DNA from: Thermodesulfobacteriales bacterium
Lineage (GTDB): Bacteria > Desulfobacterota > Thermodesulfobacteria > Thermodesulfobacteriales > Thermodesulfatatoraceae
Direction: 5' to 3'
DNA: 47,644 nt
NCBI GenBank assembly: GCA_026988575.1
Contig: JALSKZ010000056.1
Coordinates: 1 to 47,644 of the forward strand
A program made the translations under genes and the position numbers. Numbering within the stretch: the stretch's first letter is position 1; the number at the start of each line of letters is the position of its first letter. Positions 18,422-47,644 of the stretch are shown piece by piece. Under the pieces are notes generated by a model. It saw only the letters and a program-made list of their open reading frames with translations, was not told where the DNA came from and made no database searches.

Positions 18422-19711
18422 ATGGGTGACATTAAGAAACACGAAACGCCGACCATTGATGATCTTAAAAAGGGACCGTTTCCAAGTTTTGTAGACGACA
18501 TTGAAATTTTTGGATTGAACAAAAAGAAACAGGCCTGTTTAGATCTTTTGGGGCAGTTGGAGCTTTCTTACAAGAACAAAGAGACGCACTGGAAACACGG
18601 TGGTATTGTAGGTGTTTTTGGTTATGGTGGTGGTGTTATTGGCCGTTATTCTGACCAGCAGGACAAGTTTCCGGCCATTTGGGCCTTTCATACCATTCGT
18701 GTTAACCAGCCGGCTTCGAAGTTCTATCACGTCTCGGCCCTGCGTAAGCTTTGTGATCTCTGGGATCATCGTGGAAGCGGTATGACCAACTTCCACGGTT
18801 CCACAGGTGACATGGTCCTTTTGGGCACCACCACGGAACAGCTTGAACCGGTCTTTTTTGACCTTACCCACCAGATGAATATGGACCTGGGTGGGTCAGG
18901 GTCTAACCTGCGTACGCCCTCTTGTTGTGTAGGTAAGGCCCGTTGTGAGTTCGCCTGTATTGATACTCAGGCCCTCTGTTATGATCTTACCATGACTTAT
19001 CAGGACGAGCTTCACCGGCCGGCCTTCCCCTATAAATTCAAGTTTAAGATTTCTGGATGCCCCAACGACTGTGTGGCGGCCATTGCTCGTTCGGATATGT
19101 CCATTATTGGTACCTGGATAGACGATATCCGCATTGATCAAGAGGCCGTAAAGGCCTATGTGGGTGGTGAGCTCAAGCCCAATGCCGGGGCCCATGCCGG
19201 CCGTGACTGGGGGGCCTTTGATATTCAGAAGGAAGTCATTGATCTCTGTCCCACCGGCTGTATGAGCTGGGATGGCAATAAGCTCACCATTGATAACAAG
19301 AATTGTGTCCGTTGTATGCATTGTATTAACGTCATGCCCGAGGCCCTGCGGCCTGGTACCGATACCGGGGCTACCATCCTGATGGGCGCTAAGGCCCCGA
19401 TCCTTGAGGGTGCCCAGCTCTCCACCGTAATGATTCCTTTTATTCGTCTGGAGCCCCCGTATGACAACCTCAAAGAAATCGTTGAAAACGTCTGGATGTT
19501 CTGGATGGAAGAGGGTAAGAACCGTGAGCGTCTTGGTGAATTGATACAGCGTGTTGGTCTGGCCAACTTCGTAGAGACCGTCAAGCTAAAGCACATCCCA
19601 CAGATGATCAGAGAGCCACGTTCTAACCCGTACGTCTTCTGGAAGGAAGAAGAGGTGCCTGGTGGGTGGAAACGCGATATAGCTGAGTTCCGTAAGCGTC
19701 ACCCTGCTTAA
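18422..19711 (+). CDS. dsrA: Dissimilatory sulfite reductase alpha subunit
   Basis: A 429-residue DsrA, the catalytic alpha chain of the cytoplasmic alpha2beta2 sulfite reductase that reduces sulfite with DsrC as cosubstrate. The sirohaem-[4Fe-4S] ligands follow the C-x5-C then C-x3-C rule: C169/C175 (in SCCVGKARC) and C213/C217 (in GCPNDC). A ferredoxin-like insert carries C276, C280, C295, C298 and C301. Length and sequence are those of the reductive, not the oxidative, type. It is followed by dsrB and dsrD in one operon; dsrC and dsrMKJOP are not in the window. Confidence 0.98.
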   Translation: MGDIKKHETPTIDDLKKGPFPSFVDDIEIFGLNKKKQACLDLLGQLELSYKNKETHWKHGGIVGVFGYGGGVIGRYSDQQDKFPAIWAFHTIRVNQPASKFYHVSALRKLCDLWDHRGSGMTNFHGSTGDMVLLGTTTEQLEPVFFDLTHQMNMDLGGSGSNLRTPSCCVGKARCEFACIDTQALCYDLTMTYQDELHRPAFPYKFKFKISGCPNDCVAAIARSDMSIIGTWIDDIRIDQEAVKAYVGGELKPNAGAHAGRDWGAFDIQKEVIDLCPTGCMSWDGNKLTIDNKNCVRCMHCINVMPEALRPGTDTGATILMGAKAPILEGAQLSTVMIPFIRLEPPYDNLKEIVENVWMFWMEEGKNRERLGELIQRVGLANFVETVKLKHIPQMIREPRSNPYVFWKEEEVPGGWKRDIAEFRKRHPA

Positions 19712-19717
19712 AAAACG

Positions 19718-19740
19718 TAAGGGGTGTTGATCTCCCCTTA
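19718..19740 (+). other. Intercistronic stem-loop between dsrA and dsrB
   Basis: A perfect seven-base stem (TAAGGGG with CCCCTTA, nine-base loop) occupies most of the 64-base dsrA-dsrB gap. It is followed by A-rich sequence rather than a T-run, so it is more likely an mRNA-stabilising or processing hairpin than a terminator. Confidence 0.55.
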
Positions 19741-19775
19741 AAAAATAAAAGCTTAAATAGCAAGGAGGTTATGAG

Positions 19776-21008
19776 ATGGCCGATAAGATTTATGAAGAGA
19801 TTCAAAATGTACAATTAGACGAGATTTTTAGCAAACCCTATGATCCGGAACTGGGTGAGAAACTATATAATCCTCAAAAACCCATGGAGAACCGTATTAC
19901 CGATATCGGTCCTCCACACTACGCACAGTTCTTCCCGCCGGTAATCAAAAAGAACTACGGTAAATGGAAGAGCCACGAGATTATCGAGCCCGGTGTAATT
20001 AAATATACCAGTGAGACTGGTGATGTGGTTTATGCGGTACGTTGTGCTACGCCGCGTCTGGCCACCACTGATTACATCCGCGAAATATGTGAGATCGCGG
20101 AAAAATATTGTGAGGGCTATGTCCGGTGGACTACTCGTAACAATATTGAGTTCCACGTCACCGACGAAGAGAAGCTTCGGGCCCTGCTTGACGATCTAAA
20201 GGGTCGTAAACACCCGGGTGGTTCCTATAAATTCCCGGTAGGTGGTACGGGTTGCAGTGTGACTAATATTGTTCATACCCAGGGTTGGGTCCACTGTCAC
20301 ACCCCGGCTATCGACGCCTCTGGTATCGTGAAGTCCGTTATGGACGATCTCTTTGAAGACTTTCAGAATATGAGGCTTCCGGCCAAGGTCCGTATCGCCC
20401 TGGCCTGTTGCTTGAATATGTGTGGTGCCGTGCACTGCTCTGACATTGCTATTCTGGGTATTCACCGTAAGCCCCCGCTAGTTGAAGACGAACGTCTAGA
20501 ATACGTGTGTGAAATTCCTCTGGTAATCGCTGCTTGTCCTTTGGGGGCTATTAAGCCGGCTACCGTAGAGATCGACGGCAAGAAGAAAAAGACCGTACGC
20601 GTAAACGAGAGCCGTTGTATGTTCTGTGGTAACTGTTACACCATGTGTCCAGCCATGCCGCTGGCCGACGGTGAGGGTGATGGTATAGCTATCCTGGTGG
20701 GTGGTAAGATCTCTAACCGTATTTCGGCACCTAAGTTCTCTAAACTTATTATTCCTTATATTCCCAACGAGCCACCTCGTTGGCCTACTACCGTAAAATG
20801 GGTCAAGAAGATTCTGGAGACCTATGCGCAGCATGCTCGTAAGTATGAGCGCGTGGGTGACTGGGCAGAACGTATAGGTTGGGAGAAGTTCTTCGAGCTC
20901 TGTGAGATTCCGTTCTCGGAAAAGACCATGGATGATTATCGTTTGGCTTACGATACCTATCGTACATCCATGCACTTTAAGTTCACTAGTCATGTGGAAA
21001 TAAAATAA
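19776..21008 (+). CDS. dsrB: Dissimilatory sulfite reductase beta subunit
   Basis: A 410-residue DsrB that completes the sulfite reductase with DsrA. The second sirohaem cluster pair is C212-x3-C216 (in CCLNMC). At the first pair the upstream ligand position reads Thr (T168-x5-C174). The ferredoxin domain shows C281-x2-C284-x2-C287-x3-C291, and the DsrB C-terminal block [11 protein letters not shown] is present. CAAGGAGGT lies just before ATG 19776. It is cotranscribed with dsrA upstream and dsrD 12 bases downstream. Confidence 0.98.
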
Positions 21009-21020
21009 GGGGGTTTCCTT

Positions 21021-21260
21021 ATGGAAATGGAAGAAATAAAACAAAAAATCTTGGAATTTATGCAAAAAAAGGCCAAGTCAAAGTCAAAGATCTACTTGAA
21101 GGATATGCAGCGTGCTATTCCTGATGCCAAGCCCATGCAGATCAAAAAGGCGGCTAATGAGCTGGTCCGGGAGGGGAAACTCGAGTACTTTTCCACAGGT
21201 AGTACCGTGATGTATAGCTTGCCTGGTCAGGATCTGGAAAAGGGAATGACATCTGAGTAG
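21021..21260 (+). CDS. dsrD: DsrD, winged-helix activator of dissimilatory sulfite reductase
   Basis: A 79-residue protein matching the DsrD family: short basic helices (KQKILEFMQKKAKSKSKIYL) followed by a winged-helix core (KAANELVREGKLEYFSTGST). DsrD is found with dsrAB in organisms that reduce sulfite. It has been reported to act as an allosteric activator of DsrAB rather than as a DNA-binding regulator. It closes the operon and is followed by a strong terminator. Confidence 0.95.
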   Translation: MEMEEIKQKILEFMQKKAKSKSKIYLKDMQRAIPDAKPMQIKKAANELVREGKLEYFSTGSTVMYSLPGQDLEKGMTSE

Positions 21261-33161: not shown

Positions 33162-34886
33162 TCAGTGTTTATGCTTTTCTAATAGCTTGTTGTAATAGTC
33201 GATAACCTCTCGCCGGGAAAGCATGCCCAGGAATAAGCGGGGGTTTTTTTCCGCCACCACCGGGAGTTGATCAATATTTCGGATAGTAAATTTGCGCATA
33301 ACCGAGTGAATGTCTTCCGTGGGGCTTACGGTAATTACATCTCTGCGGGCGATATCCTTAATTAGCAAGAGTTTTTGTAATATAGGGTCAAATAAATAAG
33401 ACCTTATATCATTGATAGAAAATATGCCCACTAATTCTCCTTGGCTATTTACCACGGGGAAATAATGTTGCTGGGTGTTTTGGAAGAAACGTACAAACTC
33501 TTCAAAGGACATGGTCTCGGGGACAAGGGACCATTTTTTTCTTTGCGGGTCAAAGATATCGTCTACTTTTAGGCCGTATAAGATATCGTGGGAAAACTCG
33601 CCGTAGTGGGCTGGAGATTCGAATTTAGTGGGTACTTGTCCTTCGTATAGGCTTTGATACCGAAAGTTCCCGGCCAAAAAGCGCTGTACAGTATAAGAAA
33701 TAGTTACCGACAAGGCCGAGGCCCCTAATAGGGGGAAGGCTCCGGTCATCTCGATGACCATAAAGAGACTGGCTAAAGGCACGCGTGCTGCTGCCCCAAA
33801 CAGAGCACACATACCTACCACTACGTAAGCGTGCGGAGATTGGTGAAATAAGTGGGCCACCACCCCTCCAACCATGGCTCCTACAAATAGGCTAGGGGCA
33901 AATACTCCCCCCGAGCCACCGGAACCTACGGTAAGAGACAAGGCCATTATCTTGGCCCAGATAAGGATGAGCATCAGGCCAAGGGGTAAATGGCCGTCTA
34001 TAGCCCTTTGGATCCAATAGTAACCACCCCCCAGGACCTGGGGAAACTTAAGGGCCATAAGGCCTACCAGTAGTCCCCCTAAAGCCGGTTTTAAGTAGTT
34101 ACTAATAGGTAAACGACGAAATATATCTCTGGTGCCGTAAAAGGCAGGGGGTAGAAACGTGGCTACTACACCGGCCAGGATACCCAGGGCCGCAAAAAAG
34201 AGATATTCTTCCAGACTGGTTACCCGAATATTGGTCGGAAAGCGAAATATGGGGTCCCAGCTAACCAGTACGCCGGTTAAGGTATAAGCCGTAACCGAGG
34301 CAAATAGGCTAAAGAGTACGGCATGCGCTTCTATATCTACTTCGGAATACAAGATACCCACCGAAAAGAGGGCTGCACCTATAGGGGAACGGAATACGGC
34401 CCCAAGGCCTGCGGCCATGCCGATCAACAGGAGTAGCCGTCTTTGGGGGACAGGGCGGTTGGTAAGAAAGGCATAAATAGAGGCAATGCCCGCACTAATC
34501 TGGACCACGGGCCCTTCACGACCGGCAGATCCTCCCGAACCAATGGTAATAGCAGAGGCCAACATTTTTACTAAGGGTACCCTGGGCCGTATATATCCTT
34601 CGGTCTGATGAAAGGCCTTTATGGCCGCATCGGTGCCGTGTCCTTCGGCCTCTGGGGCCAAACCATAGACTAATAGGCCGGAAAAGAGCCCACCCAAACT
34701 GGTAGCTAGGGGTAAAAGCCACCAAAAATAGGTCTCTTTGGGCGCCCCGGGATGGTAGTGAATCCAACGCTCTAAAAAGAGATAATGGGTTTTATCTACC
34801 AGGAAAGTAAAAATGAGGGCGGAGACCACGCCAATCAGGCCCAAGAAAAAGGCATCAATGAAAAGACGCGTGTATTCTTTTTTCAA
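33162..34886 (-). CDS. ClC-family chloride channel/transporter with CBS pair (second copy)
   Basis: 574 residues. Residues about 8-425 form the ClC membrane domain with the gating-glutamate motif GREGP (E124) inside GSGGSAGREGP and the later GSGGSGGVFAPS. Residues about 455-570 form two CBS domains (KWSLVPETMSFEEFVRFF, then RRDVITVSPTEDIHSVM), which usually bind adenine nucleotides. The selectivity motif GSGIP is replaced by GHGTD. By eye, the internal proton-glutamate site (E203 of E. coli ClcA) is Ile178. The start is TTG 34886, five bases after the upstream paralog. Confidence 0.9.
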   Translation of the reverse strand: MKKEYTRLFIDAFFLGLIGVVSALIFTFLVDKTHYLFLERWIHYHPGAPKETYFWWLLPLATSLGGLFSGLLVYGLAPEAEGHGTDAAIKAFHQTEGYIRPRVPLVKMLASAITIGSGGSAGREGPVVQISAGIASIYAFLTNRPVPQRRLLLLIGMAAGLGAVFRSPIGAALFSVGILYSEVDIEAHAVLFSLFASVTAYTLTGVLVSWDPIFRFPTNIRVTSLEEYLFFAALGILAGVVATFLPPAFYGTRDIFRRLPISNYLKPALGGLLVGLMALKFPQVLGGGYYWIQRAIDGHLPLGLMLILIWAKIMALSLTVGSGGSGGVFAPSLFVGAMVGGVVAHLFHQSPHAYVVVGMCALFGAAARVPLASLFMVIEMTGAFPLLGASALSVTISYTVQRFLAGNFRYQSLYEGQVPTKFESPAHYGEFSHDILYGLKVDDIFDPQRKKWSLVPETMSFEEFVRFFQNTQQHYFPVVNSQGELVGIFSINDIRSYLFDPILQKLLLIKDIARRDVITVSPTEDIHSVMRKFTIRNIDQLPVVAEKNPRLFLGMLSRREVIDYYNKLLEKHKH

Positions 34887-34891
34887 GTTTG

Positions 34892-36661
34892 TTACCCACG
34901 GGAGGCCCGACGTTTAAATTCGTTTAGCCTCTGGTTATAGAAATTTATCACCTCGCGTCGCGAAATCATACCCAAAAACCGGTGTGGATCATTATCGGCC
35001 ACCACCGGAAGTTGGTCAATATTGCGTATGGTAAATTTGCGCAATACCGTATTGATGTCTTCGGAAGGGTGAGTAGTGATAACGTCTCGTCGGGCAATGT
35101 CTTTGATGACCAATATATCTTTTAGATCTTCGTCAAACAAAAAGGGCCGGACGTCATTTACGGAAAAGATGCCTACAAGACGTCCTTCTTTGTCTACTAC
35201 AGGAAAGTAATGCTGTTCTGTACGTCCAAAGACCTTTAAAAATTGTCTGAAACTCATATCTTCGGGGATTACGGCCCACACTCTGCTGGGGCGAAAGATA
35301 TCTTTTACCTTGATGTCGGCCAGTATGTCGGTGAAGAATTCACCCCGGTGGGCAGGCGAGTGTACTGGGGTAGGCACCTGCGACTCGTATAAACTCGGGT
35401 AGGGCAGATAGTTGGAAAGTATAGTCTGGATGACATAGGCTAACATGACCGATAGGCCTGCAGCAGGCAGGAGATGAAATCCTCCGGTAATTTCTACCAC
35501 AATAAGGCTGTTGGCAATAGGGGCGCGGGCGGCTGCGCCAAAAACAGAGGCCATACCTACCACAATGTAGGCCGCTGGATTTTGGTGGAACAGACTGGCT
35601 ACAAAGCCGCCCAGCATTCCCCCTACGTATAAGCTCGGGGCAAAATCTCCACCTGACCCCCCTGAACCAACAGTCAGGGCAAAGCCAAGACACTTGGCAA
35701 AAGCGAGGGTCAACATGAGGTTGCCAGAGAGGTCTCCGTTAATGGCGTGTTGTACCCAGCCATAGCCTATACCTAGTATTTGGGGTAAGGCCAAGGCCAG
35801 TAGGCCCAATAGGAGGCCTCCTAAAGCAGGCTTTAAAAAGAAGGGGAGGGGAAGTCCTTCGAAGAAACTGTGGACAACTCCAAAGACGTTGGGCATTATG
35901 GCCCCCATTATCCCGGAAAAGACGCCCAATACCGCAAAAAATAAGTATTCTTTTCCGGAAATATCCGTTACCGATGGGGGAAGAGAAAACAGGGGGTTCC
36001 AGCCTCCGCTTAAAAAGCCTATGAATACGTAAGCCACCACCGCCGAAATAAGGGTGTAAAGGAGGGCTTTAGATTCGAATTCTATTTGGCTATATAGGAC
36101 TTCAATGGCGAAAAAGGCACAACCAATGGGAGACCTAAAGATGGCCGAAAGTCCAGCAGCCATTCCCATCAGGAGAAGAAGCCTCTTTTCGTGGGGAGGG
36201 CGTTTGGTCAAATGGCCGTAAATGGCCCCGATTCCCGAAGCAATTTGGGCAGTGGGGCCTTCACGACCAGCAGATCCTCCCGAACCCAGGGTAATGGCCG
36301 AGGCGACCATTTTGACAAAGGGGACCTGAAATTTGACTTCTCCTTTGCCAAAATGAAAGGCCCTTATGGCAGCATCCGTACCGTGCCCTCGGGCTTCTGG
36401 GGCAAAGAGATAGACGATAAGGCCTGCTAAAAGGCCTCCTAGAGTGGTGACTACGGGAATGAGGTGCAGACCATAAGCGCCAATCCATTCCTGGAGAGAA
36501 CCTCCTTCATTGGGTAACCCTGGGGGACGATATTGGGCTATCTTGACCAGAAAAAGTTCCCGGCAATAATCGACCATGTGGGCAAATACATACGCCGCAA
36601 GAGCCCCGACAAAGCCAATAATAAAGGTGTCAAGTAAGAGCCTTAAGCTCCGTTTTTCCAA
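34892..36661 (-). CDS. ClC-family chloride channel/transporter with CBS pair (first copy)
   Basis: 589 residues, a clear paralog of the next gene, with the same order of domains. GHGTDAAIRAFH, GSGGSAGREGP (gating E134) and GSGGSGGDFAPS are in the membrane part. A CBS pair is at the C-terminus (about 465-580, with RRDVITTHPSEDINTVL). By eye, the E202/E203 pair of E. coli ClcA reads Glu187-Val188 here, so the proton-pathway glutamate is missing, as in eukaryotic ClC channels. The start is TTG 36661 with AGGAGAAG just upstream. The two genes are almost contiguous and probably form one unit, perhaps a heterodimer. Confidence 0.9.
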   Translation of the reverse strand: MEKRSLRLLLDTFIIGFVGALAAYVFAHMVDYCRELFLVKIAQYRPPGLPNEGGSLQEWIGAYGLHLIPVVTTLGGLLAGLIVYLFAPEARGHGTDAAIRAFHFGKGEVKFQVPFVKMVASAITLGSGGSAGREGPTAQIASGIGAIYGHLTKRPPHEKRLLLLMGMAAGLSAIFRSPIGCAFFAIEVLYSQIEFESKALLYTLISAVVAYVFIGFLSGGWNPLFSLPPSVTDISGKEYLFFAVLGVFSGIMGAIMPNVFGVVHSFFEGLPLPFFLKPALGGLLLGLLALALPQILGIGYGWVQHAINGDLSGNLMLTLAFAKCLGFALTVGSGGSGGDFAPSLYVGGMLGGFVASLFHQNPAAYIVVGMASVFGAAARAPIANSLIVVEITGGFHLLPAAGLSVMLAYVIQTILSNYLPYPSLYESQVPTPVHSPAHRGEFFTDILADIKVKDIFRPSRVWAVIPEDMSFRQFLKVFGRTEQHYFPVVDKEGRLVGIFSVNDVRPFLFDEDLKDILVIKDIARRDVITTHPSEDINTVLRKFTIRNIDQLPVVADNDPHRFLGMISRREVINFYNQRLNEFKRRASRG

Positions 36662-43020: not shown

Positions 43021-43046
43021 GGGGCCCCGTGAGGGGGCTCCTCTTT
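43021..43046. terminator. Probable terminator between the chemoreceptor gene and cooS
   Basis: GGGGCCCC (43021-43028) can pair with GGGGCTCC (43034-43041), with one G-U pair, around GTGAG. It is followed by TCTTT. It lies between two converging stop codons and could serve both genes; the T-run is short. Confidence 0.5.
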
Positions 43047-44946
43047 AAAGGGCCTTTCGTTTTTGGAGGATAATTTCTTCCATGTGTTGGGCTGTTTTTA
43101 AGGGGTCTTCCTCCACAAAGAAGTAACCTCCTAACAGATCTTTTAGGTCCTGTGTGAGGATTTTTACTACTTCGGGCCCTCCTGTTATGGGCGGTACAGG
43201 CCAAAGGTGTACGGGTACTCCCGAGGCCACAAAATAGGTGCCGATAGAAATGGCCTTTTCTGTGGTCCACTCTGGTGCTGAGCCTACTAAGGGCAGGTCA
43301 CTGATATCAACCTTTAAAAAATCGGCTATAGTAGCAGCCAATACCAACATGCGCGAGCAGTCTACACAAGACCCCATGTGTAGTACAGGGGGGATACCCA
43401 AGCTTTTACACACTGATCTCAGCCCCGCCCCAGCCCACTCATTCGCCTTGGCTTGCATCAATCCTGCCTTGGCGGCCGCGATGGCCCAACAGCCGGTACC
43501 TATTACCAGAATGTCTCGCTCAATTAAGGCCTTGGTGAGGCCTACGTGGAAGGAATCGTGTTTTATCTTAGGGTTGTTGCAGCCTACGATACCCGCTATG
43601 CCCTTTATCTTTCCGGAAACAAGGGCTTCTACTAAAGGTTTGGGGCTGCCTCCCAAAAGGGCAATGATCTCTTCGGCACTAAACCCCACCATGGCCTCCG
43701 TGGTAATTTTAGGAATATGGACCTTGTTTTTATCTCGTTTGGGAAAGGCTTCTATGGCCGTCCGGACGATTTTTTCGGCCACTTCGTTGGCGTGGGACTC
43801 CTCAAATTGGATATGCAGGGCTCCAGGGAAATGGGCCCGTTCGCTAGTCGAAATAAATTGGGTATGGAAACACCGGGATAGGGGACCCAAAGCCGGATAA
43901 ATACATTGTACATCCACCACCAGGGCCTCTACCGCACCGGTGATAAGAGCCAGTTCTTGGTATATAACGTTTCCCGCCACAGGGACTCCCTGCCGCATAA
44001 GGAGTTCGTTTCCGGTGCAGCACATGCCTACTACGTTTACCCCTTTGGCCCCTACCTCTTGCGCCAGCTCTTCCATGGCCTTTGTACGGGCTATTTCGGC
44101 TACTTTCTCCGAGAGAATGGGTTCATGTCCGTGTATGACTATGTTTACCTTATCTTCACAAAGTACCCCCAAATTCGTCTTAATAGATTTGCGTTTGGGG
44201 GTACCAAATAAGATGTCTTGAAGCTCTGTGGCAATCAGAGAGCCTCCCCACCCATCTCCCAGGGCCGTGCGCACTCCTTGGATAAGTAGCGAGAGGGCCT
44301 CATGGTCAACACCCATGTGGGTTCGGTGGAGGCATTCGGTGATCTCCCGGTCTATGTTGCGAGGCAATATGCCCAGTTTTTGGCCCCTCTGGGCCCATAA
44401 TTTTTCTTCTAGACCTTGCCAGAGATTAAATCTCTTTTTAGGGCTATAAGCCTTCAAAAAACTCAAGGGCCTTTCGTCCTGTTTGCCAAAATCTTCCAGG
44501 GCAATGCGGGCCACCCTTTGGGCACACTCCTCTAAGCTTAGATCTTCAGAAAGACCAAGCCTTTTGGCTACAGCGCGCAATTTAGACGTATCGGTAATCT
44601 GGTAAGCGCTATTTTTCCCGAGACTTACTTCGTTAAATAGTACCGCCACGGCTCGACCATGATCTGAATGGGCAGCTGCTCCAGCGGCCAGACCACGTAA
44701 GAGGTTGCGGGCTACCACGGTGTCTGCGGTGGCCCCGCATACCCCTCGGGGATTTTTTTCGGTTATTCTGCAAGGCCCCATGGCACAATTGCGACAACAA
44801 ATACCTTGGCTACCAAATTTACAGGAGGGAGTTTGCCGTTCTAAACGATCCCAGACCGTTTCGTATCCCTCTTGCCGACCCAAAGAGATCATTTCTCTGA
44901 CGGCGGGATCTATGCTTAGCTCTTCTACAGCCTTCTTTTTCTTCAT
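43045..44946 (-). CDS. cooS: Anaerobic carbon-monoxide dehydrogenase catalytic subunit
   Basis: A 633-residue Ni-Fe CO dehydrogenase (CO + H2O to CO2 + 2e-). The D- and B-cluster cysteines are in place: C42-x7-C50 and C51-x2-C54-x4-C59-x10-C70. The C-cluster ligands known from Carboxydothermus are all recognisable: the His in HGHEP and cysteines in VGMCCTGNE, VVDVQCIYPA, VGCNNPK, GTGCWAIA and GSCVDCSRM. The enzyme should therefore be active. It is solitary: no cooC nickel chaperone, CooF ferredoxin or acetyl-CoA synthase subunit is in the window. AAGGAGG precedes ATG 44946. Monofunctional CO oxidation or CO detoxification is the likely role. Confidence 0.97.
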   Translation of the reverse strand: MKKKKAVEELSIDPAVREMISLGRQEGYETVWDRLERQTPSCKFGSQGICCRNCAMGPCRITEKNPRGVCGATADTVVARNLLRGLAAGAAAHSDHGRAVAVLFNEVSLGKNSAYQITDTSKLRAVAKRLGLSEDLSLEECAQRVARIALEDFGKQDERPLSFLKAYSPKKRFNLWQGLEEKLWAQRGQKLGILPRNIDREITECLHRTHMGVDHEALSLLIQGVRTALGDGWGGSLIATELQDILFGTPKRKSIKTNLGVLCEDKVNIVIHGHEPILSEKVAEIARTKAMEELAQEVGAKGVNVVGMCCTGNELLMRQGVPVAGNVIYQELALITGAVEALVVDVQCIYPALGPLSRCFHTQFISTSERAHFPGALHIQFEESHANEVAEKIVRTAIEAFPKRDKNKVHIPKITTEAMVGFSAEEIIALLGGSPKPLVEALVSGKIKGIAGIVGCNNPKIKHDSFHVGLTKALIERDILVIGTGCWAIAAAKAGLMQAKANEWAGAGLRSVCKSLGIPPVLHMGSCVDCSRMLVLAATIADFLKVDISDLPLVGSAPEWTTEKAISIGTYFVASGVPVHLWPVPPITGGPEVVKILTQDLKDLLGGYFFVEEDPLKTAQHMEEIILQKRKAL

Positions 44947-45141
44947 AAAGGCCTCCTTTTATATAGAATTTTTCTTATAATAGAGGGTAGAAGGGAATAT
45001 CGGGGATATTAAATGACAAAAGACCTTATTTTTTTATGAAGTGTAAAAAAAAATGATAATATTTTAGAGAGAGGAGGCCGAGGAGAGAATCGTAGTTATT
45101 AAATTATTAAAATAGAGAGATAATATCGCCGGGGAGGTCTT
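44947..45141. promoter_or_regulatory. cooS - mini-reductase divergent control region
   Basis: 195 AT-rich bases between divergent genes. A palindrome AATATC-GGG-GATATT lies at 44996-45010. TATTATAAG-like promoter elements point toward cooS, and GGGGAGG precedes the plus-strand gene. No coding frame is credible. The palindrome could bind a dimeric regulator shared by both genes; it does not match the FNR/CRP consensus. Confidence 0.4.
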
Positions 45142-45951
45142 ATGCGTTGGGAGCCTGAAGCAGAAAAATTGCTTAACCGAGTACCTTTTTTTGTACGAGG
45201 CAAGGTGCGTAAAAAGATAGAGGGGTTGGCCAGGGAAAGGGGCCAAGAGTTGGTTAGCAAAGCTCTAGTGTTGGAGGCCAAGTCTCTATTTAGAGATAAA
45301 TCAGCAGAAATAAAAGAGGGGTTTAGTGTAGAGGCCTGCTTTGGGTCTTCAGGCTGTCCCAACGCGGTTACAGAATCCTCTTCTTTGTTAGATAAACTAG
45401 AAGCCCTCCTCAAAGAGGAAGACCTCACGTCTTTTTTACGCGAAAAGGTCGGGGGGCCTTTGAAGCATCACCACCAGTTTCGGGTTGCGGTTTCCGATTG
45501 CCCCAACGCTTGTGCTCAGGTACATATCAAAGACTTTGGGCTCCTTGGTCACGTGGAACCCCTATTGAATGGAGAGTGTAAGCTCTGTGGTAGTTGTGTT
45601 CAACAGTGTCAAGAGCAAGCCGTGGAATTGGGGGAGCGTTTTGTCCTTTTTGATCCGGTGCGTTGTTTAGGCTGTGGGGCGTGTCTAAAGGTTTGTCCCA
45701 CCGGGGCCCTTGTCCCCGGGCGTGTGGGTTATAGAGTTTTGGTAGGAGGAAAGCTTGGGAGACATCCCCAATTGGCCTACGAACTGGTCCCCTGGGCCAG
45801 TCCAGAGGAAGTAGTAAGACTCCTTAAGCGTGTGATCTCTTTTTATAAACTTTACAATCAGCGGGGAGAACGCTTAGGAGAAATAATTTCTCAACAAGGT
45901 TGGGCAAAATTTAAAACGTATGTGTTGGGAGATGAAGGAGATAACTTATGA
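45142..45951 (+). CDS. PCP_red - sirohaem sulfite/nitrite-reductase-like - ferredoxin mini-protein (Dsr-LP type)
   Basis: 269 residues with three parts. Residues 1-40 (WEPEAEKLLNRVPFFVRGKV) match the small PCP_red domain. The sirohaem-[4Fe-4S] ligands follow C66-x5-C72 (CFGSSGC) and C120-x3-C124 (DCPNAC), as in DsrA and assimilatory reductases. An inserted ferredoxin carries C146/149/152/156 and C175/178/181/185 for two [4Fe-4S] clusters. The C-terminus GYRVLVGGKLGRHPQLA is the usual close of the sulfite-reductase half-domain. It is much smaller than DsrA/B and has one half instead of two, like Dsr-like proteins of archaea or small low-spin sulfite reductases. The substrate is unknown. Confidence 0.85.
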   Translation: MRWEPEAEKLLNRVPFFVRGKVRKKIEGLARERGQELVSKALVLEAKSLFRDKSAEIKEGFSVEACFGSSGCPNAVTESSSLLDKLEALLKEEDLTSFLREKVGGPLKHHHQFRVAVSDCPNACAQVHIKDFGLLGHVEPLLNGECKLCGSCVQQCQEQAVELGERFVLFDPVRCLGCGACLKVCPTGALVPGRVGYRVLVGGKLGRHPQLAYELVPWASPEEVVRLLKRVISFYKLYNQRGERLGEIISQQGWAKFKTYVLGDEGDNL

Positions 45952-46634: not shown

Positions 46635-47644
46635 CTAGAAGCGCTTGCCTTTGTAGCCCCGGGGAGTGATGAGCCACGGGCCAAAGCAAAAGCTTCCTGA
46701 GTTTCCGATAAAAATCGTGGTCTGCATGTCTATTTCGTGGTCAAGGAGTTTCTCTAAGGTGGTAAGCAAGAGGGTCTCTCCCTCGCGGCTTATGGCCCGG
46801 GCCAGACCCACAGGGGTCTTTCCTGGCAAAATATTAAGAAGCAGCCGGTGGGCCTTTTTAAGAGGTTCTTTCCTGGTGCGACTCATGGGGTTATAAAGCA
46901 CCAGGACGAAGTCGGCCTCAGCTGCGGCGCGCAGGCGCTTTGCAATGGTCTCCCAGGAGGTTAAGCGGTCAGAGAGGCTTATCACGGCAAAGTCGTGGGT
47001 AAGAGGCGCTCCAAGGCGGGCGGCCCCGGCGTTTAAGGCCGAAACCCCGGCAATTACTTGAACTTCAAAGTCTGGCGGTGCTCCGTCTTCAGCCAAAAGC
47101 TCAAACACAAGGCCGGCAAGCGCATAAATGCCCGGGTCTCCCCCGCAAACAAGGGCCACCTTGGCCCCCTTTTGAGCAAGCTCTATGGCCTTTTGCGCCC
47201 GTTCAACTTCTTTGGTCATGCCAGAGGTAAAAGTCTGTTTCCCAGCAAGAAGGGGAGCAATCAGGTCAAGATAACACTTGTAACCCACCACGTAGGTGGC
47301 CTCTCTTATGGCCTTGCGGGCAAGAGGGGTCATCTCGGAAAGGCTTCCAGGCCCGGTGCCTACGATAGAAAGCTTTCCCCAAAAGGGTGTCTCTTTTGCC
47401 GCCACTGCAAGAGTAAGGCCAGCGACCTTGGTCTTTGGGATAAGGAGCCTTGCCTTTTCCCCTGCGGCAAACATGGCCGCAGGCTCAGCTACTGCTGGCG
47501 TGCCAAGAGAGGTGTTTGCGGCAAAGCTGTTAGCAAGGCCAAGGCGTGCGCACTCCTTGGCCAGGCTCTCGGGGGCAATCCCCATAAGCTTTAGCCCGTA
47601 TTTTTGGGCAAATTCGCTAAGCCCTTTTACCGCAGCCTTTTTGC
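46635..47644 (-). CDS. CbiG C-terminal domain fused to precorrin-3B C17-methyltransferase (CbiH/CobJ), 5' end outside window
   Basis: The frame stays open to the right edge, so the N-terminus is missing. The first ~115 visible residues (KYGLKLMGIAPESL, then LGTPAVAEPAAMFAAG and LIPKTKVAGLTLAVAAK) match the C-terminal part of CbiG. From about KLSIVGTGPGSLSEMTPLAR a tetrapyrrole methylase begins, with the SAM-binding CGGDPGIYALAG and VIAGVSALNAGAARLG of CobJ/CbiH. The two enzymes act one after the other in ring contraction of the corrin ring in cobalamin synthesis. A CbiG-CobJ fusion is known in some anaerobes. Its codon use seems somewhat richer in G+C than the genes before it. Confidence 0.88.
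   Translation of the reverse strand, partial: KKAAVKGLSEFAQKYGLKLMGIAPESLAKECARLGLANSFAANTSLGTPAVAEPAAMFAAGEKARLLIPKTKVAGLTLAVAAKETPFWGKLSIVGTGPGSLSEMTPLARKAIREATYVVGYKCYLDLIAPLLAGKQTFTSGMTKEVERAQKAIELAQKGAKVALVCGGDPGIYALAGLVFELLAEDGAPPDFEVQVIAGVSALNAGAARLGAPLTHDFAVISLSDRLTSWETIAKRLRAAAEADFVLVLYNPMSRTRKEPLKKAHRLLLNILPGKTPVGLARAISREGETLLLTTLEKLLDHEIDMQTTIFIGNSGSFCFGPWLITPRGYKGKRF

Follow-up and report, generated by a model that had tools for sequence, protein, structure and literature searches.

A widely conserved iron-sulfur protein family that joins PCP_red to a sulfite-reductase-like module, with a probable role in nitrosative stress

The stretch of Thermodesulfobacteriales DNA analysed here (the window, 47,644 nucleotides) carries on its forward strand, at positions 45142–45951, an open reading frame that begins with ATG, has the ribosome-binding site GGGGAGG immediately 5′ of it, and encodes a 269-residue protein, P0001. 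Three helices forming a PCP_red domain occupy residues 3–47 (45148–45282; Pfam E 1e-16), and they are followed by a NIR_SIR domain at residues 63–261 (Pfam E 1.3e-22) into which a 2[4Fe-4S] ferredoxin is inserted, visible as two Fer4 Pfam matches between C146 and C185 (45577–45696). The two ligand pairs of the [4Fe-4S]/sirohaem cluster are C66-X5-C72 (45337–45357) and C120-X3-C124 (45499–45513), and the ferredoxin cysteines are C146/149/152/156 and C175/178/181/185. By analogy with C472 of MjFsr (PMC10229431), C124 is expected to be the bridging ligand to the sirohaem iron. Two further conserved motifs lie within the body of the protein: an HHxFR motif (H110-H111-Q112-F113-R114; 45469–45483) and GGKLGRHP (residues 202–209; 45745–45768), the counterpart of GGKTGR in Fsr. 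The AlphaFold2 model of P0001 has a mean pLDDT of 91.5; Foldseek matches its body to Fsr (E 1.9e-17) and DsrAB, and its front to the PCP_red NMR structure 2kru (0.9 Å over 50 residues). A preliminary description of this gene had noted the twelve cysteines, the PCP_red domain at the front, and a single module with all four cluster ligands that is unlike DsrAB, and all of these are borne out.

Apart from this family, PCP_red is known from dark protochlorophyllide reductase, and the copy in P0001 is the only one in the source genome. The resemblance to BchB/ChlB, the proteins represented by 2kru, is confined to this domain, which stands at the back of BchB and at the front of P0001; Pfam finds nothing in P0001 of the nitrogenase-like catalytic domain of DPOR/COR.

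The stop codon of the P0001 gene overlaps by 4 bases the start of a second forward-strand gene, P0002 (45948–46550), and the two are probably translationally coupled. P0002 is a conserved partner, a zinc-ribbon protein of the HD family that has lost its HD motif. This loss extends to all relatives from the same order that were examined, whereas many other Desulfobacterota keep the motif; the members that were read all retain the zinc ribbon. On the other side, a divergent intergenic region (44947–45141) separates P0001 from cooS (43045–44946, reverse strand), which encodes a Ni-CODH catalytic subunit, a Prismane-family homologue of Hcp. Of two CooS-type matches in the genome, the copy in the window scores above the CODH cut-off and is a stand-alone catalytic subunit. 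We considered CODH as a functional partner and rejected it, as cooS lies within 4 kb of a family gene only here and at one other locus, an arrangement that we put down to chance or to an echo of Hcp. Farther away, 24 kb from P0001, lie dsrA and dsrB (ending at 21008) and a 79-residue open reading frame that fits DsrD (21021–21260), making a complete dsrABD set at 18422–21260.

P0001 is a real, widely conserved and unstudied iron-sulfur protein. The family is found chiefly in the Desulfobacterota: 35 genomes among 41 relatives have a match, as do 34 of 99 genomes sampled across the phylum, although some of the latter matches are AsrC-like or distant and 21 genomes were counted as carriers. When 84,980 species, each represented by a single genome, were scanned, 272 relatives were confirmed. 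The records of the best 80 of these are labelled Desulfobacterota or Deltaproteobacteria, with a few Proteobacteria or unclassified bacteria, and because the alignments of these 80 begin at residue 1 to 3 and run onwards, they include PCP_red. None of the 12 cysteines varies across 95 full-length relatives, so the arrangement is not due to chance; H110, GG-LGR and P209 are likewise invariant, and GGKLGRHP as a whole nearly so. Among 19 family members scanned, every one has PCP_red and none has the NIR_SIR_ferr half-domain (PF03460), whose position PCP_red takes. In a tree of the NIR_SIR part, the family, together with three close reference rows, forms one clade (support 99/97) that stands apart from DsrA, DsrB, the AsrC-like and alSir-like proteins and two small NIR_SIR proteins; the reference rows are long-branched, and the branching order outside the clade is therefore unresolved. 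A literature search for PCP_red together with sulfite reductase returned nothing, and in the papers that could be searched we found no account of the family, of its architecture or of the loss of its sulfite site.

Some variation exists at the margins of the family, and the members without PCP_red or C72 tell against the reading favoured below. Members at four loci (L069, L070, L095 and L096) do not have PCP_red, and relatives from the same taxonomic family, at four loci (L095, L097, L099 and L128), carry a copy of about 207 residues that lacks PCP_red, has C-X4-C for C-X5-C, and is followed by a UvrA-like gene. Two divergent homologues (L104 and L105) have a PCP_red-like front and have lost the second cluster cysteine, C72, and the family is matched three times in one genome (G071). 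A search of plasmids gave AsrC or unannotated matches at 26–29%.

It is instructive to examine which genes accompany the family elsewhere. Within 4 kb of the family gene at 110 distinct loci, tblastn located a dicluster ferredoxin at 41, a zinc-ribbon/HD protein at 40, Hcp at 17, a Crp/Fnr regulator at 12 and a flavodiiron protein at 6. In these relatives the family gene forms an operon with the ferredoxin, the zinc-ribbon/HD protein and often Hcp; we call the ferredoxin FrdX-like because it keeps company with Hcp in operons as FrdX does, a label that does not rest on its sequence. On the scale of genomes, Hcp is present in 18 of the 21 that carry the family and in 41 of 78 others (p 0.006, a statistic that ignores kinship). 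DsrB is present in only 14 of the 21, and the occurrence of the family is thus not linked to sulfate reduction. The preliminary description had pointed to a corrinoid gene near P0001 as fitting a tetrapyrrole theme. The gene is real (CobJ/CbiH, 46635–47585), but neither it nor any other tetrapyrrole gene recurs beside the fetched relatives, and we set it aside as a clue.

In the relatives, a perfect TTGA-N6-TCAA precedes 49 of 107 family operons and 16 of 860 other open reading frames of the same loci (Fisher p 2e-38), an imperfect control in that many of these upstream regions are coding DNA; relatedness among loci exaggerates the significance given by the p value, yet it does not account for so large an effect. 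After shuffling of the same upstream regions, the motif remained in 1 of 122. The sites, which are predicted by consensus match alone, lie mostly 50–90 bases ahead of the start, and they are found in 21 of 63 loci that have neither the ferredoxin nor the HD gene nearby. FNR-type regulators bind the same form of operator, and for this reason HcpR is the likely reader but not the only possible one. The alternative CRP-type HcpR site, TGTGA-N6-TCACA, was rejected, being not enriched (1 observed, 1.3 expected). The motif fits that published for HcpR of delta-proteobacteria other than Desulfovibrio, wyTTGACnnnnGTCAArw (PMC1274295). This regulatory link may already have been noticed on one occasion, as an HcpR-controlled, nitrite-induced gene of Desulfovibrio vulgaris, 206515, annotated "putative sulfite/nitrite reductase", is reported to have an HcpR site and to lie in an operon with a polyferredoxin gene (PMC545781, 2004). 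By this description 206515 is a candidate orthologue of the P0001 family, although the site before it belongs to the CRP type (TGTGA-N6-TCACA), unlike that of the family. This conserved link to Hcp, the FrdX-like ferredoxin and HcpR, which the preliminary description had missed, points to nitrosative stress, and we consider a role of the family in it very probable. As the relatives' gene stands beside, and is apparently co-induced with, genes that answer stress from nitric oxide and nitrite, its product probably handles reactive nitrogen and not sulfite.

The comparison with known sulfite reductases leads in the same direction. The best structural match of P0001 is the C-terminal domain of Fsr (7np8, 7npa), and ligand spacing, ferredoxin insertion and the GGKxGR motif are common to P0001, this domain and the group III Dsr-LPs; in contrast to Fsr, P0001 has neither Fsr-N nor the half-domain. 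AsrC (TIGR02912) also contains a NIR_SIR domain with an inserted 2[4Fe-4S] ferredoxin and is about 29% identical over the shared part, but it has an N-terminal half-domain, annotated AsrC proteins keep R, R, H and K at the anion site, and asrC genes stand with asrA and asrB, neither of which neighbours the P0001 gene. Fsr holds sulfite by R355, R423, K460 and K462 (PMC10229431). R355 falls in the NIR_SIR_ferr half-domain, missing from the scanned family members; the position of R423, which is F61 in P0001 (45322–45324), is Tyr, Phe or Trp in 91 of 95 relatives; and the positions of K460 and K462, Q112 and R114 in P0001, are Glu/Gln in 81 and Arg/Lys in 94 of the 95. Hence only the fourth of the four anion-binding residues is kept. 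P0001 has the sirohaem-cluster motif and the two ferredoxin clusters that define group III Dsr-LPs (PMC3448663), but with one sulfite-binding residue its family falls short of the three or four that published Dsr-LPs retain (PMC3448663), and of the at least three asked of a group III member. The strong selection on the cluster and electron path, set against a sulfite site that has not been kept, is our main argument against sulfite as substrate. The argument from the pocket is indirect and is not proof: FsrII with F420H2 is active on nitrite and hydroxylamine but leaves sulfite unreduced, and its failure with sulfite has been ascribed to electron potential, not to the pocket (PMC9295563). Nonetheless, a pocket with an aromatic residue and Glu/Gln in place of Arg and Lys would appear a better fit for NO, hydroxylamine or nitrite than for sulfite.

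Taken together, these observations are best explained if P0001 belongs to an uncharacterised iron-sulfur family of the HcpR/Hcp nitrosative-stress regulon that probably binds sirohaem and either reduces an N-oxide or passes electrons to Hcp; we give this explanation as a whole a probability of about 0.6. Its parts are not equally firm. Judged from sequence, the binding of sirohaem or a related tetrapyrrole is slightly favoured, although the loss of the half-domain that contributes R355 in Fsr tells against it, and N-oxide reduction as the reaction of the family is a tentative proposal that may well be wrong. In the mechanism that we envisage, electrons would enter from the small ferredoxin into the two ferredoxin clusters of P0001 and pass from there to the [4Fe-4S] centre of C66, C72, C120 and C124, which would bridge to a sirohaem sitting, as it does in Fsr, where the two subunits of a homodimer meet. 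PCP_red might fill in for the missing half-domain as a lid or dimer contact, and the substrate would be NO, hydroxylamine or nitrite, unless the electrons are handed to Hcp. The boldest version, in which these sirohaem-[4Fe-4S] enzymes would form a class of their own, with PCP_red standing in for half of the customary fold as the tetrapyrrole lid, and would reduce NO or hydroxylamine with Hcp and its ferredoxin, strikes us as unlikely. If sirohaem is indeed bound without the usual half-domain, the module would be smaller than any solved to date, with a bearing on the origins of sulfite reductases. The question also bears on NO and hydroxylamine detoxification in strict anaerobes and on the electron source of Hcp where a ferredoxin gene replaces hcr; this conserved and co-regulated family, with its sulfite-reductase core and impaired sulfite site, is a direct candidate in both matters.

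It is also worth weighing other ways to read these features. P0001 could be a pure electron-transfer partner, a multi-cluster ferredoxin that arose from a sulfite reductase, lost sirohaem, and now feeds Hcp (or CODH). The operon with Hcp and the dicluster ferredoxin, the invariant ferredoxin cysteines and the disappearance of the half-domain and of three anion-binding residues all agree with this, but the retention of both cluster ligand pairs and H110 in every full-length relative and of GGKLGRHP in nearly all exceeds what a bare cluster needs, and the addition of a domain from a tetrapyrrole enzyme would be left unaccounted for; we regard it as rather unlikely but not negligible. Less probable still is a tetrapyrrole carrier, a maturation factor or a sensor of NO or redox state. 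The preliminary description had left room for an assembly factor, as it had for another oxyanion as substrate. The union of a sirohaem-binding fold with the genome's only PCP_red domain would fit such a function, as would a P0002 partner that in this order keeps its zinc ribbon and has lost its HD site; the two extra ferredoxin clusters, however, speak for electron delivery, and tetrapyrrole genes do not recur in the neighbourhood.

A small assimilatory or detoxifying sulfite reductase, the main reading of the preliminary description, has in its favour that Fsr, AsrC and Dsr are the closest solved structures or named families and that every cluster ligand is present. Sulfite reduction is nevertheless unlikely given that PCP_red replaces NIR_SIR_ferr and three of the four sulfite-binding Arg/Lys are missing or replaced. 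Furthermore, P0001 scores 88.7 bits against the AsrC model, far below the curated cut-off of 324.1, the conserved neighbours are Hcp, FrdX and HcpR and not sulfur genes, and the source organism already has DsrABD; we consider this reading highly improbable. Finally, a decayed dsrB, suggested by the shared order of NIR_SIR and ferredoxin and by a local match to the DsrB model, is dismissed on the separate, well-supported clade, the invariance of the ligands and the occurrence of the family in genomes where dsrB was not found.

Returning to the favoured reading, that of an iron-sulfur family of the nitrosative-stress regulon, the source organism departs from the pattern seen in its relatives. 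In the window no ferredoxin gene adjoins P0001, and the 44947–45141 region upstream of P0001 contains no HcpR-type operator (best match, 5 of 8 positions). Hcp is absent from the genome, and single queries, run without a positive control, found neither an HcpR homologue nor an FrdX-like gene in it. In contrast, the nearest relatives in the same taxonomic family, at four loci (L111, L112, L118 and L121), keep the ferredoxin, P0001, P0002 and the operator. P0001 is thus a pared-down member, and what it does now may not be what the family does; a role in nitrosative stress is less certain in this organism, without Hcp, than in the family at large.

The source genome has five NIR_SIR matches: DsrA, DsrB, P0001 and two small proteins, both closest to the NirB model. 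The first of these, of 235 residues (L003, 1492–2199), has NIR_SIR_ferr and adjoins an Rrf2-like regulator, and the second, of 237 residues (L005, 1213–1926), adjoins a SecF-like gene. Elsewhere in the window, at 33162–36661, two tandem genes encode chloride-channel-like proteins with CBS-like C-termini.
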